A DNA stretch of 45,142 bases from Candidatus Poribacteria bacterium (lineage in GTDB: Bacteria; Poribacteria; WGA-4E; WGA-3G), in NCBI GenBank assembly GCA_009839745.1, contig VXPE01000134.1:1-45142 (forward strand), written 5' to 3'. Made by a program: the position numbers and the translations under genes. Under the pieces are notes generated by a model. That model worked only from the letters and a program-made list of their open reading frames with translations, searched no databases and was not told the origin of the DNA. This document shows, one piece after another, positions 5,840 to 29,998 of the stretch (position 1 is its first letter; each line of letters begins with the position of its first letter).

Positions 5840-6859
5840 GTGAACTTAAAAGCCGTTTTTGAACAACTTCAAGGCAAGCGGGTCGTGATTATCGGTGATG
5901 TCATCTTGGACAGATATGTCTGGGGGGATGTGAAACGAATTTCGCCAGAAGCCCCTGTTCCAGTGTTTGAAACGACGACAGAGAAGACCGGATGTGGTGG
6001 CGCAGCGAATGTCGCCCAAAATGTTGCCAGCTTAGGCGGCAACGCAACGCTGGTCGGGGTCATCGGTGAGGACAGGGAAGGCGAAAAGTTAGTCCAGATG
6101 CTAACCGAAACGAATCTCGTTACGACCGGGGTCTATGCGGATCCGCAGCGACCGACAAGCACAAAAACACGCGTCATTGCCCGTGGCGCCATGCCCTTCC
6201 CAGATCGGGAACGGGATTCGGGACATCACCTGCTCCGTATTGACAGGGAATCCAAACAGGAAATCTCGCCGCAGATACGAGAACACCTACTGAACACTAT
6301 CGCTGCGCAGCTGCCAACAAGCGATGCAATTATCTTTGCTGACTACGATAAAGGGGTCGTCACGCCTCAGCTCATCAAGGATGTTATGAAACACGCCAAA
6401 TCTTACGGTATCCCCATCATCGTCGATCCGAAGCAAAACAACTTCTGGCACTATAAAGGTGTAACCGCCGTTACGCCGAACCACAAGGAAGCAAGTGCTG
6501 CTGTCCATGAAGAAATCACGGATATGTCCGATCTCGTCGCTGTTGGTGAGAAAATTCTGGACAGATTGTCCCTTAAGGCGTTGCTAATTACCCGCGATGC
6601 GAAGGGTATGTCTCTGTTTCACCGTTCGGCAGATAGTATCGTAAAAGCAGAGCATCTCCCACCCCACTCAAACAGTGTGACAGATGTTACAGGGGCAGGG
6701 GACACGGTTGTTGCCGCTTTCACACTCGCGCTCGCAGCCGGTGCTGAATTTCGTAGTGCTGCGGTGCTGTCTAACCTTGCAGGTGGGATAGCCGTCGGTA
6801 AGATGGGGTGTGCGACCGTTACACCACAGGAACTGCTGTACACTATCAAGGCTTTTTAA
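5840..6859 (+). CDS. hldA: D-glycero-beta-D-manno-heptose 7-phosphate kinase (HldA-like, RfaE1 domain)
   Basis: A 339-aa PfkB/ribokinase-family sugar kinase that phosphorylates heptose 7-phosphate at C1 in the route to nucleotide-activated heptose for the LPS inner core. The N-terminus has the typical RfaE block GDVILDRYVWGDVKRISPEA, then the glycine-rich GCGGAANVA, and the C-terminal anion-hole and catalytic motif DVTGAGDTVVAA. The cytidylyl/adenylyltransferase domain of bifunctional HldE is absent, so this is the kinase-only form and a separate HldC is expected elsewhere. The start is GTG; an upstream ATG-GTG-TGA overlaps it. It is followed by gmhB, the next enzyme of the pathway, about 210 bp downstream. 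Confidence 0.9.
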   Translation: MNLKAVFEQLQGKRVVIIGDVILDRYVWGDVKRISPEAPVPVFETTTEKTGCGGAANVAQNVASLGGNATLVGVIGEDREGEKLVQMLTETNLVTTGVYADPQRPTSTKTRVIARGAMPFPDRERDSGHHLLRIDRESKQEISPQIREHLLNTIAAQLPTSDAIIFADYDKGVVTPQLIKDVMKHAKSYGIPIIVDPKQNNFWHYKGVTAVTPNHKEASAAVHEEITDMSDLVAVGEKILDRLSLKALLITRDAKGMSLFHRSADSIVKAEHLPPHSNSVTDVTGAGDTVVAAFTLALAAGAEFRSAAVLSNLAGGIAVGKMGCATVTPQELLYTIKAF

Positions 6860-7070
6860 TTTTACCTTAAATCGCGACGAAAGTTTCAAGGTTGCGAAGT
6901 GTGCTAAAGTTTGCGAGTTTCAAGAGACGCCTTAGCAACTTTACAGATTTTAGAACACTTTACAACTTTCTACCAGACCCGTAGCCTGCAACAACGGCGC
7001 AGGCGGATTTAAGGAATGTGCGTTAAAGATTCAAAATGATGTCATTTCTCCGCAAGGAAAGATTAAAAAG

Positions 7071-7646
7071 ATGAAGACTATTTTTCTCGATAGAGATGGT
7101 GTTATCAACCGGAATCCACCCAATAAAGGCTACGTCCGGAAATGGGCAGAATTCACCTTCATTCCGAATTCCCGGAAAGCGATCCGAGAATTAACAGAAG
7201 GCGGTTATCGAATTATTGTGGTAACCAATCAATCAGGAATCGGGAGAGGCCTCTATTCAGAGGAAGATTTAGCGGATATTCACTCACGAATGGTTGCCGA
7301 AATTAGAAAATCAGGTGGAACAATTGATGCCGTTTATTACTGTCCACACCATCCCGATGCCGGATGTGAGTGTCGCAAACCGAAGCCGGGTATGTTAATG
7401 CGCGCTGCCCGTGAACACAACATTGAACTGGAAAATGCCTATTTGATTGGTGATTGGACCACAGATATTGAGGTAGGACAGCGTGTCGGTGCCACAGCAT
7501 TTCTCGTTTTAACAGGACTTGGACAGGAGAGTTATTACCACTACATTCGGACGAAACCGTGTCGGCGTGCGGATCAGAACGGACATCGTCCTGATAGGAT
7601 CTTCACAAACCTTTACACAGCAACGCGTTGGCTTATAGAAAATTAG
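7071..7646 (+). CDS. gmhB: D-glycero-D-manno-heptose 1,7-bisphosphate 7-phosphatase
   Basis: A 191-aa HAD-superfamily phosphatase that removes the 7-phosphate from heptose bisphosphate. The HAD motif I nucleophile and acid/base are in FLDRDGVINR at residues 4-13, motif II is VVTNQSGIGRG, the GmhB zinc site is CPHHPDAGCECRKPKPG near residues 92-108, and motif III/IV is LIGDWTTDIEVG. Length is normal for the family. The leader ends with CGCAAGGAAAGATTAAAAAG directly before the ATG, part of the repeat-derived leader family. It lies between hldA and a UDP-sugar dehydrogenase gene, giving a cell-envelope sugar cluster. Confidence 0.9.
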   Translation: MKTIFLDRDGVINRNPPNKGYVRKWAEFTFIPNSRKAIRELTEGGYRIIVVTNQSGIGRGLYSEEDLADIHSRMVAEIRKSGGTIDAVYYCPHHPDAGCECRKPKPGMLMRAAREHNIELENAYLIGDWTTDIEVGQRVGATAFLVLTGLGQESYYHYIRTKPCRRADQNGHRPDRIFTNLYTATRWLIEN

Positions 7647-7682
7647 AATGAAAAACTGAAACTGTAGCCCGTAATGTAATGG

Positions 7683-7752
7683 AGGGCGGATATACGGAGA
7701 GGCACTTCATCCATCAAATCCACCTGACCGAACCGCAAGGTAAAATTAAAAG
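7683..7752 (+). repeat. Interspersed repeat forming the leader of the sugar dehydrogenase gene
   Basis: This copy runs from the GGGCGGATATACGGAGAGGC block through CACCTGACCGAACCGCAAGG to the base before the start codon of the next gene. The terminal AAGGTAAAATTAAAA part supplies the ribosome-binding site. Other copies abut starts at 16951 and 25124 on the minus strand. Confidence 0.7.
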
Positions 7753-9063
7753 ATGATTCTTGGAAAAATAGAAACCCGGACGGCTCGCTCGGGTGTTATC
7801 GGGCTTGGATATGTCGGACTGCCGCTTGCCGTTGCGATTGCGAGTGCAGGATTCCGAGTTACAGGCATCGATATCTGTTCAGAAAAAATAGAACGGTTGA
7901 AACAGGGCATCTCCGACGTTCCTGATGCGACCAACGCAGTGCTCGTCCCCCTTATTGCGTCCGAGCAGCTGCAGGTAACGACAGACTTTTCTGTGCTACG
8001 CGAATTGGACACAGTTAATATCTGTGTGCCGACCCCTCTGGGGGAAAACCGAACCCCCGACATGCAGTTTATCATCGCTGCAGTTCAGCAAATTGCGCAA
8101 TACCTCCACCCCGAACAACTGATTATCCTCGAAAGCACCACCTACCCCGGCACTACCGCAGAGGTTGTATTGCCCGAACTCAACGCCCAGTTTCCTGGCA
8201 CCCTACAAGTAGGACGTGATTTCTATCTCGCCTACTCACCGGAACGGATCGAGCCGGGGAATAGTACCTACTCCGTGACAAACACCCCTAAAATTATCGG
8301 AGGTGTCACGCCGCAATGCACCCACGTCGCGAAAACCTTCTACGCACAGTTCATTCATAAAACACACACAGTCTCTTCACCCCGGACAGCAGAGATGGTC
8401 AAACTCTTAGAAAACACGTTTCGGAGTGTCAACATCGGCTTAATTAATGAGGTCGCGCTTATCTGTGACCGGATGGAGCTTGATGTGTGGGAAATCATTG
8501 ATGCCGCTGCGACAAAACCGTTCGGATTTATGCCGTTCTATCCAGGTCCCGGGCTGGGTGGACACTGTATTCCAATTGACCCGCATTATCTCTCTTGGAA
8601 AGCACAGATGTATCAGTATCACGCTCGATTTATTGAGCTCGCTACCGAAATTAACAGTGAGATGCCGAAATACGTGTTAGACAAAATCATCCACGCCCTG
8701 AATCTTCAACGTAAACCCTTGAATGGAGCGAAACTATTAATCTTAGGAATCGCTTATAAAAAGGACATCGGCGACATTCGCGAATCGCCCGCACTTGAAG
8801 TAATTCGTTTAATTCTTGACAAAAAAGCGGAATTCCTATATCATGACCCCTATATAAAAGACTTGTCTCTTGATGATACAGAAATCTATCACTCAGAACC
8901 GCTAACAGCAGCTCTTGTAGAAAGTGTTGATTGTGTTGTCGTCCTAACCGATCATACTGCTATAGACTACAACTGGCTCGTCACACATGCCCAACTGATT
9001 GTTGACACACGCAATGCAACGCGCGGTGTCAAGAAAGGACAGGAAAAAATTATCAAAATTTAA
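7753..9063 (+). CDS. UDP-sugar 6-dehydrogenase (UDP-GlcNAc/ManNAc/GalNAc dehydrogenase family)
   Basis: A 436-aa NAD-dependent nucleotide-sugar dehydrogenase that oxidises C6 of a UDP-hexose(amine) to the uronic acid for surface polysaccharide. The NAD-binding motif GLGYVGLPLA is at residues 17-26, the ESTTYPGTT block near 133, and the catalytic cysteine is in GPGLGGHCIPIDP near residue 270. The YPGPGLGGHCIPIDPHYLSW block is typical of the WbpA/WecC/TviB branch rather than plain UDP-glucose dehydrogenase, but exact substrate cannot be decided from sequence alone. It follows hldA and gmhB in the same direction. Confidence 0.85.
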   Translation: MILGKIETRTARSGVIGLGYVGLPLAVAIASAGFRVTGIDICSEKIERLKQGISDVPDATNAVLVPLIASEQLQVTTDFSVLRELDTVNICVPTPLGENRTPDMQFIIAAVQQIAQYLHPEQLIILESTTYPGTTAEVVLPELNAQFPGTLQVGRDFYLAYSPERIEPGNSTYSVTNTPKIIGGVTPQCTHVAKTFYAQFIHKTHTVSSPRTAEMVKLLENTFRSVNIGLINEVALICDRMELDVWEIIDAAATKPFGFMPFYPGPGLGGHCIPIDPHYLSWKAQMYQYHARFIELATEINSEMPKYVLDKIIHALNLQRKPLNGAKLLILGIAYKKDIGDIRESPALEVIRLILDKKAEFLYHDPYIKDLSLDDTEIYHSEPLTAALVESVDCVVVLTDHTAIDYNWLVTHAQLIVDTRNATRGVKKGQEKIIKI

Positions 9064-22206: not shown

Positions 22207-22983
22207 TTAACGTCCTGCTTTCAGGCGACCCCAGGTTGTAGAGAGTTTCCCCGCTGCTTCAACAGCAAGGGCATCTACACCCTGTTCCATGAACGTATTG
22301 ATCTCATCCTCGCTCAGTGCGCGATTCCAGAGACGGACTTCGTCAATAATTCCGGCAAAGACGTAATTAAGACGTTCGCAATCCTGTCCAATCCGCCACG
22401 GATCATCGTTGGCTGCAAGTTTGCCGGGGACATCCCCTTCAGCTTCTTCCTTACCATCAATGTAGATTTTGCCCTTCTTGGTGTCGTTGGTGAAAGCGAT
22501 ATGGATAAATTTCTCGGTGTCAGGCAGACCGGTCGAAATATCATTGCGACCCGCTTCGGTTTCAAAACGGAGTTTGAAGGTGCCACCTTCACTGAACAAT
22601 CCGTATTGAACCCTACCACCGCATCCGCCGTGAACGGATTTACCGACAATCTGGCGGGTGCCGTTCCAGTGCTCGGCGTTAACCCACGCCATAAACGTCA
22701 TTTCATCCACATTCAGTTCGGGAGTGCTTTCAACGGTGACAAAAACATCGCTGCCTTCACCCCCAAATTCCAACGCCTTGTCGAATTTGCCGTCAACCCA
22801 TTCTGGATTGTCAATGACACCGTCATGCCCGTTTCCGCTAAGATCTTCCGCTTTGTCCCCCTTGCCTTCATCATAGGGGTGGTACACCACCAAGCCATCT
22901 AGGAACTCTGCTGGACCGATAGACATAGCGAAGGGTGTCACTACCAAAAGTAGTGTGATGGATAAACAAATAGCCAGTTTCAT
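22207..22983 (-). CDS. LamG-domain secreted protein, paralogue 1
   Basis: A 258-aa protein with a signal peptide (residues 1-22) and a single concanavalin A-like/LamG domain (about 30-235). Typical features are DLSGNGHDG, the jelly-roll AWVNAEHW, and the end GIIDEVRLWNRALSEDEI. Such domains bind carbohydrates or act in adhesion. It is close in sequence to the gene at 25355-26143, and the two lie on either side of the AAA gene. A consensus promoter is at 23074-23102 and GGAGGC lies before the ATG. Confidence 0.85.
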   Translation of the reverse strand: MKLAICLSITLLLVVTPFAMSIGPAEFLDGLVVYHPYDEGKGDKAEDLSGNGHDGVIDNPEWVDGKFDKALEFGGEGSDVFVTVESTPELNVDEMTFMAWVNAEHWNGTRQIVGKSVHGGCGGRVQYGLFSEGGTFKLRFETEAGRNDISTGLPDTEKFIHIAFTNDTKKGKIYIDGKEEAEGDVPGKLAANDDPWRIGQDCERLNYVFAGIIDEVRLWNRALSEDEINTFMEQGVDALAVEAAGKLSTTWGRLKAGR

Positions 22984-25354: not shown

Positions 25355-26143
25355 CTAATGCGCAATTTTGATGTTGCCCCAAGTGGTGGCTAATTTCGCA
25401 CGAGGGTCAACGGACACCCCTAAGTCTTGTGCCCCAGTAATTTCGTCAGCACTCAAGGCACGGTTCCAGAGAGAAACCTCATCTATAATGCCCGCGAAGA
25501 CATAGTTGAGGCGTTCACAATCCTGCCCGATCCGCCACGGATCATCGTTGGCTTTCAATGTACCCGGCACTTCGCCTTCGGCAACCGCTTCAGCGTTGAT
25601 ATAGATTGTTGCTGTTTCGCCATCGTTGGTAAAAGCAATGTGGATCCATTCACCTGTTGCTGGCAGATCGGTTGTGATATCAGCTCTGCCGCCTTCGGTT
25701 TCAAAGCGGAGTTTGAAAACGCCACCTTCGCTGAATAGACCGTATTGTGTTCTACCCGCACACCCACCGTGAACAGATTTACCAACGATCTGACGTGTGC
25801 CGTTCCAGTGATCTGCGTTAATCCATGCCGCAAAGGTGCACTCGTTCACGTTCAAGACATCTGTGCTCTCAACAGTGACGAACACGTCGCTGCCTTCGCC
25901 ACCAAACCGGAGTGCCTTCCCGATCTGCCCGTCTACCCAATCCGGATTGGAAATTTCACCGTCGTGTCCGTTACCGCTCGCGTCTGCAGCGAGTGTGCCT
26001 TCCCCTTCATCATAAGCATGATGTAGGACAAGCCCATCTGTGAGTGCTGCCGAGACGAACGGTGTAAATAACAGGGTGAGTGCTATTGAGAAACACACAA
26101 TCCCATAGACTGAGAATCTGCCAGTCAATATTGCATTCTTCAT
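25355..26143 (-). CDS. LamG-domain secreted protein, paralogue 2
   Basis: A 262-aa secreted protein with a signal peptide (about 1-32) and one LamG/concanavalin A-like domain. It shares long identical blocks with the 22207-22983 protein, such as NADHWNGTRQIVGKSVHGGC versus NAEHWNGTRQIVGKSVHGGC, and the DPWRIGQDCERLNYVFAG block, so the two arose by gene duplication. It has its own perfect promoter (26171-26199), an AGGAGGC ribosome site and an intrinsic terminator, so it is a single-gene unit. Ligand unknown. Confidence 0.85.
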   Translation of the reverse strand: MKNAILTGRFSVYGIVCFSIALTLLFTPFVSAALTDGLVLHHAYDEGEGTLAADASGNGHDGEISNPDWVDGQIGKALRFGGEGSDVFVTVESTDVLNVNECTFAAWINADHWNGTRQIVGKSVHGGCAGRTQYGLFSEGGVFKLRFETEGGRADITTDLPATGEWIHIAFTNDGETATIYINAEAVAEGEVPGTLKANDDPWRIGQDCERLNYVFAGIIDEVSLWNRALSADEITGAQDLGVSVDPRAKLATTWGNIKIAH

Positions 26144-27733: not shown

Positions 27734-28573
27734 ATGATGGAAACCTATAAAGGTTACGTAAATCCACAACTAATTATCTCTGCTGAGGAATTGAAAGGCG
27801 CGCTCGACGATCAAACGTTCTGCATCGTCGATACGCGACCGACATCCGAATATATCCGCGGACACATCCCCGGTGCCCTTCATTTAGATTTGTTCGGTTT
27901 AAGCCTCATTGATACTCGGAAAGAGACGTTCGATGCCTTTATGTGGATGATAGCATACCTGTTTCAGCAACGCGGTCTTGATCCGAGTAAACCGATTGTA
28001 TGGTATGAAGACATATCGGGAACGCGCGCCTCGCGCGGGTTCTGGTTTTGCGAATACTTAGGGCACCCTGAAACCCATCTATTGGATGGCGGTTTCAAGG
28101 CGTGGCTATCAGCAGATGGACCTGTGAGCACAGCTGGGGCTGAACCCCCGGAGGTTCCACCTTTTCCGATAAATACGCAACACGATATACACATGGATGC
28201 GGATGTGATTCGTGTCCTGTTAAATCGAGACGACTTTATTCCCCTTGATACACGCACCGACGATGAACACTACGGTCGGGTTGCCCGTGCAGAGCGGGCA
28301 GGGGCTATTCCAGGTTCCATCCACATTGAATGGCTCGATAATCTTGACGAGGTGGGGGCATTCAAACCCGCTAATGAACTCCGGGCAATGTATGAAGCCG
28401 TCGGTATTACACCGGAAAAACAGGTAATGTGTTACTGACAGGGCGGCTACCGCTCTTCCCAAGCCTATTTGGCGTTGCGGCTCTTGGGTTACCCAAAAGT
28501 GAGCAACTACATAGGCTCTTGGAAAGAGTGGGGTGACCGGCTGGATTTGCCGGTCGAAATTCCGGAAGCTTAG
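27734..28573 (+). CDS. Tandem rhodanese sulfurtransferase, probable selenoprotein (TGA at active-site position)
   Basis: The frame 27734-28435 is followed by TGA (28436-28438) and then stays open to a TAG at 28571-28573, giving 279 aa if TGA is read through. The part after TGA ([18 protein letters not shown]) is the normal end of a COG2897/SseA-type sulfurtransferase. With the TGA read as Sec235 the loop is U-Q-G-G-Y-R, fitting the rhodanese CxxGxR active loop exactly. The N-terminal domain (residues 12-130) has Glu in its loop (WYEDISGTR) and is the usual inactive half. Cys233 two residues before gives a C-x-U arrangement. An AGAAGGAG ribosome site precedes ATG. The alternative is a nonsense mutation of a TGT/TGC codon. 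No selABCD genes are in this window. Confidence 0.75.
28450..28480 (+). promoter_or_regulatory. Candidate bacterial SECIS stem-loop
   Basis: Downstream of the TGA, CCGC (28450-28453) can pair with GCGG (28477-28480), and inside it AAGCC (28461-28465) with GGCGTT (28471-28476, one bulge), leaving loop TATTT at 28466-28470, about 28 nt after the TGA. The distance fits bacterial SECIS elements, but the loop lacks the usual early G. Other folds (CCCAAG with CTTGGG) compete. Confidence 0.3.
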
Positions 28574-28590
28574 CGGTTATGGCACACGGT

Positions 28591-28983
28591 GTGATACCAC
28601 CCAACGCCTAAAGGCGTGGGAAACCTCGGCTTCGTAGACGCTGCGGTTTTCGCAAAGTGCGTCAACCGTCTTATTACGTCTCCACCCGCAGGCAATTCCC
28701 TATCCCCCTGAAAAAGCGGGGGTAGGCATATCGTGCGGAAACTTTCACGGGTATCCCTGCCTGCCTCTCTCCGTTTTGGAGAGAAAAGATTTTAGGCGAG
28801 AATGCAATACAACGTGCGGAATTTCACCCCCGCTCCGATTCACACTTTCGTGCAATTACGCCTTAGCATCCTCTGATACTTTTTAGGGGGTATTGACACC
28901 TGACACCGATTCACTCCCTCTCACAGGAGCGGACAACTCCCGCACAAGGATTGCACGGGGTGAGAGCGTTGTCCAAGTGTCAG
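28591..28983 (-). ncRNA. Structured RNA candidate with IS200/IS605-type right end
   Basis: No credible protein is encoded. Read on the minus strand from the promoter at 28989-29017, the sequence forms a pseudoknot: GGACAAC (28968-28974) pairs with GTTGTCC (28931-28937), while CTCTCAC (28960-28966) pairs with GTGAGAG (28918-28924), all enclosed by GACAC/GTGTC (28977-28981 with 28902-28906). Next is a three-way junction closed by an 8-bp stem (28866-28873 with 28798-28805) with a GCAC-GAAA-GTGT hairpin, then a 7-bp hairpin at 28766-28784, and a helix 28758-28764 with 28688-28694. The 3' end (GAAGCC, then palindrome 28600-28620, then GGTATCAC) looks like an IS605-family right end. It may be an omega-RNA-like remnant without its nuclease gene. 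Confidence 0.5.
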
Positions 28984-28988
28984 TATTC

Positions 28989-29017
28989 ATTATAGCATTT
29001 TTTTATGTTTTTGTCAA
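28989..29017 (-). promoter_or_regulatory. Consensus sigma70 promoter for the structured RNA
   Basis: On the minus strand TTGACA (29012-29017), 17-bp spacer, TATAAT (28989-28994). It points into the non-coding structured region rather than any open frame. Confidence 0.8.
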
Positions 29018-29076
29018 GGGAAAAAATGCTTTTTTTAGACAACAGTTTGGTCTAATTAACAGGAGCGGGCATTCAT

Positions 29077-29096
29077 CCTAAACCTAAAGGATTAGG
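29077..29096. repeat. IS200/IS605-type end palindrome, second copy
   Basis: CCTAAACC, loop TAAA, GGATTAGG (one mismatch), followed by AAACCTTC. The same pattern (TAAA loop, then GGAAACCTC) occurs at 28600-28620, in the same orientation. Suggests nested or adjacent insertions of IS605-like mini-elements between the rhodanese and amidohydrolase genes. Confidence 0.5.
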
Positions 29097-29152
29097 AAAC
29101 CTTCTGCCCGAATTTCGGTAAGTCATCTCTCCCCAACACATTGGAATTGTCG

Positions 29153-29998
29153 TCATGTTGTTAAATCCCAAATCTCTGCGGCGGTGCCGCCGAGGATCCG
29201 ATCTTTGTCATTTTCTGTCAGGAACGGAAGACCTTCTCGAATGAGTTGGAGTTCTTGCGCTAAAGTGGGCCAGTTGTGTTTTTGTCTGTGGTGACCGGGA
29301 TAACCCGTTCCCCATATCGTCCGGGATGCACCGAAAACCGATAACAGGTTCTCAATGAACGGATGCACGTCTGTATAAGGGAAATCCTGATGTGAACGTC
29401 CAGCGACATCCGATAGTTTCAAGTAGATATTGTCGTGGCGTGCAAGCTCCACGATGGGTTGAAACACCGCTTCCGCAGCATCTACCTGTGGATAACCCAT
29501 GTGATCGAGAATAAGTCTCAGATGCGGGTAACGTTCCGCAATAACGGCAACCTGATCCGCGAACTCCGCGCGGAGGTGAAATTGGATGATAGCATCCAAC
29601 GCCGCTATCTCTTCCCACATCGGACTGTTTTGTTGGGTGAGTAAAATCTTTTCGTCCGGGTAGTACATCGGATGGAAACGGAAACCGGCTAAGCCTCGCT
29701 CCTTTATCCAATAGCGAACCTGCGCTGCATTGTTCGGATCTTCTGGATCGATTAAACCGTGTCCGATAAACCGATCAGGAAAACGCGCTACCGAATCCGC
29801 AATATAGCCGTTATCCCAAGTCGACCAACTCGTCTGCACGAGAACTGTCCAGTCTACGCCGTGCGCGTCCATCTCCGAGAGGAGTTCATCGGCAGTCCCG
29901 GGTTCATCTGGATAGGAATTCCAACTCGGAGCGGTGGGACCGACGGGATACTTTGGAGGATCGATTTCCCAGACATGCACATGGGTATCTACAATCAT
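29153..29998 (-). CDS. Amidohydrolase-related TIM-barrel protein (amidohydro_2 family)
   Basis: A 281-aa protein of the COG3618-like metal-dependent hydrolase family. It starts with the metal motif DTHVHVWEID at residues 3-12, then FRFHPMYYP near 105, FHLRAE near 138, LDHMGYP near 164, and a late IWGTGYPG near 235. In most members this last motif is WGSDYP/WGSDWP with the catalytic aspartate; here it is glycine (checked in DNA), so activity may be altered. Substrate unknown: related enzymes are lactonases or decarboxylases. It precedes a divergent gap and follows moeA on the same strand after 25 bp. Confidence 0.8.
   Translation of the reverse strand: MIVDTHVHVWEIDPPKYPVGPTAPSWNSYPDEPGTADELLSEMDAHGVDWTVLVQTSWSTWDNGYIADSVARFPDRFIGHGLIDPEDPNNAAQVRYWIKERGLAGFRFHPMYYPDEKILLTQQNSPMWEEIAALDAIIQFHLRAEFADQVAVIAERYPHLRLILDHMGYPQVDAAEAVFQPIVELARHDNIYLKLSDVAGRSHQDFPYTDVHPFIENLLSVFGASRTIWGTGYPGHHRQKHNWPTLAQELQLIREGLPFLTENDKDRILGGTAAEIWDLTT

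Follow-up and report, generated by a model that had tools for sequence, protein, structure and literature searches.

Cas12 probably descends from TnpB. In elements of the ISDra2 type, the TnpB omega RNA (or reRNA) has a 3′ scaffold that runs to the right end of the element, and the adjoining flank serves as its guide (PMC8612924, PMC10097598). A pseudoknot between the end of the scaffold and an upstream strand has been described for ISDra2 TnpB and Cas12 RNAs, and a split omega RNA has been proposed as the origin of separate guide RNAs (both in PMC10097598). Standalone omega RNAs are known for IscB (mentioned in PMC9581776), and PATEs are IS605 derivatives that consist of ends only (PMC7290912).

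Here we describe a locus in a 45,142-nucleotide stretch of Candidatus Poribacteria DNA (the window) that we judge, at a probability of roughly 0.8 and on comparative sequence grounds, to be a non-autonomous element of the IS200/IS605 family that makes a single product, a standalone TnpB omega RNA of ~395 nucleotides that is transcribed from its own promoter and acts in trans. As with the ISDra2-type omega RNA, a 3′ scaffold extends to the right end and is followed by a flank-derived guide, and a guide-proximal pseudoknot and a left-border target motif are common to both. However, the Poribacteria RNA lies outside of a tnpB mRNA, has its own promoter, is ~395 nucleotides long, and carries two extra 5′ domains. 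The standalone IscB omega RNAs (PMC9581776) and HEARO RNAs are likewise guide RNAs without an attached nuclease gene for which action in trans is proposed, but the Poribacteria RNA is of the TnpB type, with its guide at the 3′ end, a different fold, and no match to the HEARO model of Rfam. PATEs (PMC7290912) also have IS605 ends, lack genes, and are moved in trans (as we propose for the Poribacteria element), whereas the element described here adds a promoter and a long RNA of conserved structure. Finally, IS1341-type elements of the same Poribacteria, which encode only TnpB, are alike in left end, promoter, leader, and omega RNA, but the ORF-less elements carry a distinct domain (D2) in place of tnpB and have lost its start codon.

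Our incomplete coverage of the literature yielded no report of TnpB-type standalone guide RNAs with these domains, although standalone RNAs of the TnpB type within PATEs may have been described previously. Because standalone guide RNAs are already known for IscB, the new aspect is a standalone guide RNA of the TnpB type.

Borders, promoter, and setting of the element

The assigned features, with the evidence for each, are as follows.

28591–29117, minus strand: whole non-autonomous IS200/IS605-type element (homology boundaries to other copies; survey of TTAC/TTAT left flanks; right flank matches the empty site in L225)
29118–29121, minus strand: left-border TTAC, target motif and putative TAM (TTAC/TTAT conserved among 33 copies)
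~29067–29109, minus strand: left-end subterminal hairpin (sequence; the hairpin recurs in other copies and in TnpB elements)
28989–29017, minus strand: promoter TTGACA-N17-TATAAT inside the left end (sequence; equivalent in most copies and in TnpB elements)
28889–28985, minus strand: D1, the 5′ pseudoknot domain, comprising P1 with a duplicated 3′ strand, P2, P3, P4, and a 7-bp pseudoknot (covariation; tnpB-leader model)
28796–28890, minus strand: D2, a conserved three-way junction (matches to model R1; ORF-less elements only)
28591–28772, minus strand: D3, omega RNA scaffold of the TnpB type, with the right-end hairpin as part of it (homology to the overlap with the tnpB 3′ end and to the sequence downstream of it; covariation)
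28750–28755, minus strand: 5′ strand GATACC of the guide-proximal pseudoknot (pairs with GGTATC at 28598–28593)
28593–28598, minus strand: 3′ strand GGTATC of the guide-proximal pseudoknot (pairs with GATACC at 28750–28755)
28571–28590, minus strand: putative guide ACCGTGTGCCATAACCGCTA, the right flank of the insertion (empty site in G048; the rest of its genome has no TAM-bearing match)

The element spans 527 bp and is ORF-less. An initial annotation, made from the window sequence alone, had placed a structured RNA at 28579–29020. The observation itself was confirmed, but that interval missed the left end of the element, including the hairpin at ~29067–29109 and the TTAC at 29121–29118. The promoter consensus noted at that time is present on the minus strand as claimed, with TTGACA at 29017–29012 and TATAAT at 28994–28989 separated by a 17-nucleotide spacer. 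The right-end palindrome and TATCAC were likewise borne out, in that this hairpin and motif stop exactly at 28591, where homology to other copies also ends. The element has a subterminal hairpin at each end and no protein gene, as is expected of a non-autonomous member of the IS200/IS605 family. Across the standalone copies, the longest sense ORFs range from 27 to 81 amino acids and have no frame position in common.

The edge of the element lies 17 bp past the stop codon (28571–28573) of a convergent rhodanese gene. This gene (27734–28573) contains an in-frame TGA (VMCY-TGA-QGGYRSS) that is conserved in all 11 relatives checked, which is consistent with selenocysteine in the predicted protein. 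Elsewhere in the window, two similar LamG-like secreted proteins (22207–22983 and 25355–26143) are probably paralogues.

The RNA fold is conserved by covariation

Downstream of the promoter lies the predicted ~395-nucleotide RNA, which encodes no conserved protein. The minimum free energy of a 413-nucleotide transcript is −160.5 kcal/mol, compared to −133.9 ± 5.6 kcal/mol in shuffles (z = −4.7). An alignment of 33 standalone RNAs (A1) was used to assess covariation, and the predicted pairs are formed in 97.9% of its 2,734 cells. Changes on both sides were observed for 42 of 83 pairs, compared to 31.1 ± 1.9 in shuffles, which ignore the relatedness of the copies. By the same shuffle control, the covariation score is 0.406 versus 0.152, and double-change cells number 384 versus 121. 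Controls in which the partners were slid by 1 to 3 columns do retain relatedness among copies, and pairing then falls to 37–50%.

The 7-bp H-type pseudoknot reported initially is formed by CTCTCAC (28966–28960) and GTGAGAG (28924–28918). It is paired in all 33 homologues, and four of its seven pairs have changed on both sides. The three-way junction with its GAAA tetraloop and the remaining stems covary as well. These comparisons, which include the search for covariation that the initial annotation had called for, indicate that the fold is under selection. Searches of Rfam with the window and five homologous loci gave no match at the gathering score and two chance matches below it, and the HEARO covariance model, which a HEARO or IscB omega RNA should match, gave no hit either.

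D3 is homologous to tnpB-linked omega RNAs

The 3′ third of the RNA (~180 nucleotides) is homologous to the omega RNA found at tnpB ends in neighboring elements. In the genome of the window (G000), the last ~113 nucleotides match the sequence directly after TnpB C-termini on four contigs (C42, C87, C130, and C3). The D3 homologue in TnpB elements overlaps the end of tnpB, where GCAGGGATACCCGTGAAAGTTTCCGCACGATATGCC encodes AGIPVKVSARYA in L128 and its relatives.

The guide-proximal pseudoknot takes the form GATA[C/G]C paired with G[G/C]TATC. It is perfect in 32 of 33 standalone copies, standard pairs are formed over the aligned columns in all 33, and eight copies carry a compensatory C-G/G-C swap. 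The pseudoknot also pairs in 30 of 30 tnpB-linked instances examined (repeats counted). A scaffold that is homologous to tnpB 3′-end RNA, that ends at the right end, and whose end forms a pseudoknot identifies D3, by sequence homology and pairing, as a TnpB omega RNA scaffold. The link to IS605 omega RNAs that had been drawn at the outset is therefore supported by the tnpB-linked 3′ ends and this pseudoknot, as well as by the TTAC sites and the agreement between guide and empty-site flank described below.

D1 is shared with tnpB leaders, whereas D2 replaces tnpB

D1 is homologous to the leader of tnpB mRNAs, 5′ of tnpB start codons, and is thus common to the ORF-less RNA and these leaders. Model R2, for which only 14 tnpB leaders were used, recovers D1 of the standalone copies L014 (E = 8e-9), L015, L095, and L087; it did not find D1 of the window copy. 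With this same model, leaders were detected in 52 of 85 genomes. Of 30 loci inspected, 28 encode a TnpB at or close to the end of the model match, with protein identity as low as 26%, and the remaining two loci sit at contig ends.

The tnpB leader (for example in L128 and L126) ends at the start codon; its pseudoknot pairs in 14 of 14 sequences, with five of six pairs doubly changed. Two tandem 3′ strands of the leader both covary with one 5′ strand, a pattern that suggests strand exchange. This pseudoknot leader of tnpB mRNAs is previously undescribed. We also considered an HDV-like ribozyme for D1 and rejected it on a comparison of helix order, given that P4 does not fit between the strands and that P3 has excessive length.

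D2 occupies the place of tnpB, and its loops are highly conserved. It is seen only in ORF-less elements, usually ~200–230 nucleotides before TATCAC, and is absent from the tnpB leaders examined. Model R1, which represents D2, yields 51 matches. Among the 85 genomes of the phylum, 20 contain such a match; 19 of these 20 genomes belong to one genus and the other to a sister genus. A pattern scan of GTDB contigs found D2 solely in records titled Poribacteria, none was found in viral contigs, and D2 matches nothing known in Rfam. Copies that always contain a decayed tnpB would have argued against a distinct RNA, but in all resolved copies except one, D2 is followed by the omega RNA within ~200–230 nucleotides, and no tnpB remnant lies in the interval. 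In the exception (L181 ~5860–7990, in G055), ~1.8 kb of unrelated DNA separates D2 from D3 of a standalone element.

Copies, mobility, and available TnpB proteins

The search for further copies that was proposed initially recovered two more ORF-less copies in G000 (on contigs C41 and C108; the window is contig C134) and many in relatives. Matches occur in 43 of 59 genomes of the family, many of them full length. More than 50 ORF-less relatives were found, apparently only in Candidatus Poribacteria, and searches of a plasmid collection and of viral contigs gave no match. Five copies in G055 are at least 99% identical and sit in unrelated flanks, which indicates recent mobility.

Other elements have left ends that match this left end and promoter; on contig C57, the match is followed by the leader and then the tnpB start. 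TnpB elements and ORF-less elements share both ends, the promoter, the 5′ leader, and the omega RNA. TnpB homologues are present in 51 of 58 family genomes, many of them intact. They carry OrfB_IS605 and Cas12f1-like TNB domains, match the ISDra2 TnpB of known structure (8bf8, E ~1e-39), and by inspection contain the RuvC motifs GADFGM, ETLNL, and HDRDINAA. Seven matches to Y1_Tnp were found in G000 and are candidates for a TnpA that would act on these ends in trans. In the draft assembly of G000, the closest TnpB gene, an 84%-identical copy, is cut by a contig end, and no close one is whole. The assembled TnpB copies of this genome have the GATAGC-type pseudoknot and the three ORF-less copies have GATACC.

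Insertion sites and the putative guide

Among 33 copies, the left border is TTAC in 21 and TTAT in nine; in the remaining three, the left end is altered or missing. Insertion occurs 3′ of TTAC/TTAT without target duplication, as for IS200/IS605 elements. At the empty site in G048 (C8:22512–22535), TTAC-ACCGTGTGCCGTAACCGCTA equals the right flank of the window element with one mismatch, on the right side only. The putative guide thus corresponds to the right flank that adjoins the TAM at the empty site, both in G048 (TTAC-ACCGTGTGCC) and in G041 for another copy, L090. The latter empty site is continuous across the junction without duplication, and the motif there is TCAC rather than TTAC.

The left flank of the window element (29118–29160) corresponds to the first part of an alpha/beta-hydrolase gene, and G048 and others (L225–L232) carry that gene intact. 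In relatives, this gene lies between amidohydrolase and rhodanese genes; the window lacks its central part, adjacent to the left end. Because the gene is intact in relatives, ~0.7 kb of it was deleted next to the left end of the element, at a TTAC, and recombination between two copies is a possible route. An apparent joined-flank empty site in three genomes was rejected, since the window flanks match there end to end only because the hydrolase gene is absent. The true right-hand empty site is that of G048, where the gene is present.

Mechanism and alternative explanations

In the published model for IS605 elements, TnpB cuts the donor joint or empty allele, after which repair restores the element. 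By this logic, TnpA from other elements would excise and insert the ORF-less element, and TnpB from a sister element would load the standalone RNA and read the flank as a guide. After excision, TnpB would cut the donor joint of TTAC and flank, or the empty allele, and repair from a sister copy would restore the element. D1 and D2 probably make the RNA more stable or help TnpB to engage it in trans, and so would replace the cis coupling between tnpB mRNA and omega RNA. Two findings count against this reading: D1 and D2 are more elaborate than this function alone should need, and the TnpB and ORF-less copies of G000 differ in pseudoknot type while the close TnpB gene is incomplete. More tentatively, and with somewhat less than even odds, the locus might be an RNA-only selfish element in which D1 and D2 form a new trans-competence module that recruits TnpB made elsewhere, with D1 acting as a strand-exchange switch in which a single 5′ strand, next to the start codon of tnpB, could pair with either of two competing 3′ strands arranged in tandem.

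An RNA that binds TnpB as an omega RNA does might instead mainly titrate the protein or control its expression, with use as a guide being incidental. The tnpB leader domain and scaffold present in the RNA would fit such a decoy or regulator, as would the extra, highly conserved D2. Recent copies nevertheless keep the guide pseudoknot, right end, and TTAC border, as expected of a guide in use, and we regard this explanation as unlikely. Less probable still is a plain PATE- or MITE-like element that retains its ends for TnpA and makes the RNA as a by-product of an internal tnpB deletion. Although the IS605 ends and the relict tnpB C-terminal codons in D3 would be accounted for, strong covariation extends to internal helices outside the ends, the promoter is kept, and the conserved D2 is absent from tnpB elements.

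The initial annotation had also raised a domesticated or orphan guide RNA. The second term holds insofar as no nuclease gene is attached. Domestication to regulate a host gene is very improbable: although the window site holds a single copy, which adjoins a conserved gene, the elements are multicopy and recently mobile, their guides vary with each flank, and neither position nor guide is conserved across strains. Moreover, matching the flank as a guide, as the initial annotation had advised, revealed no other good match with TTAY and hence no TAM-bearing second target in G000, and a host-regulator role was rejected on this basis. An unrelated structured RNA that happens to lie beside transposon ends is the least credible of these explanations, for D1, D2, and D3 are found as a unit, flanked by IS605-type ends, at many loci. 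This initial suggestion is refuted for the 3′ third, given its homology to the omega RNA linked to tnpB; the middle domain, D2, is new and has no known match.

Significance

If the standalone omega RNA reading is correct, the TnpB guide of these Poribacteria elements is uncoupled from tnpB, has its own promoter, and spreads as a mobile element. Such a naturally occurring family would make directly testable the step by which the guide came to be encoded by its own gene and to act in trans, as with tracrRNA and crRNA. The family also offers a source of new, long TnpB guide scaffolds, along with the undescribed pseudoknot leader of tnpB mRNAs. Our findings further suggest that gene-less elements parasitize RNA-guided nucleases; the element in the window looks like such a parasite, which would borrow the TnpB of another element to hold its place in the genomes of sponge symbionts.
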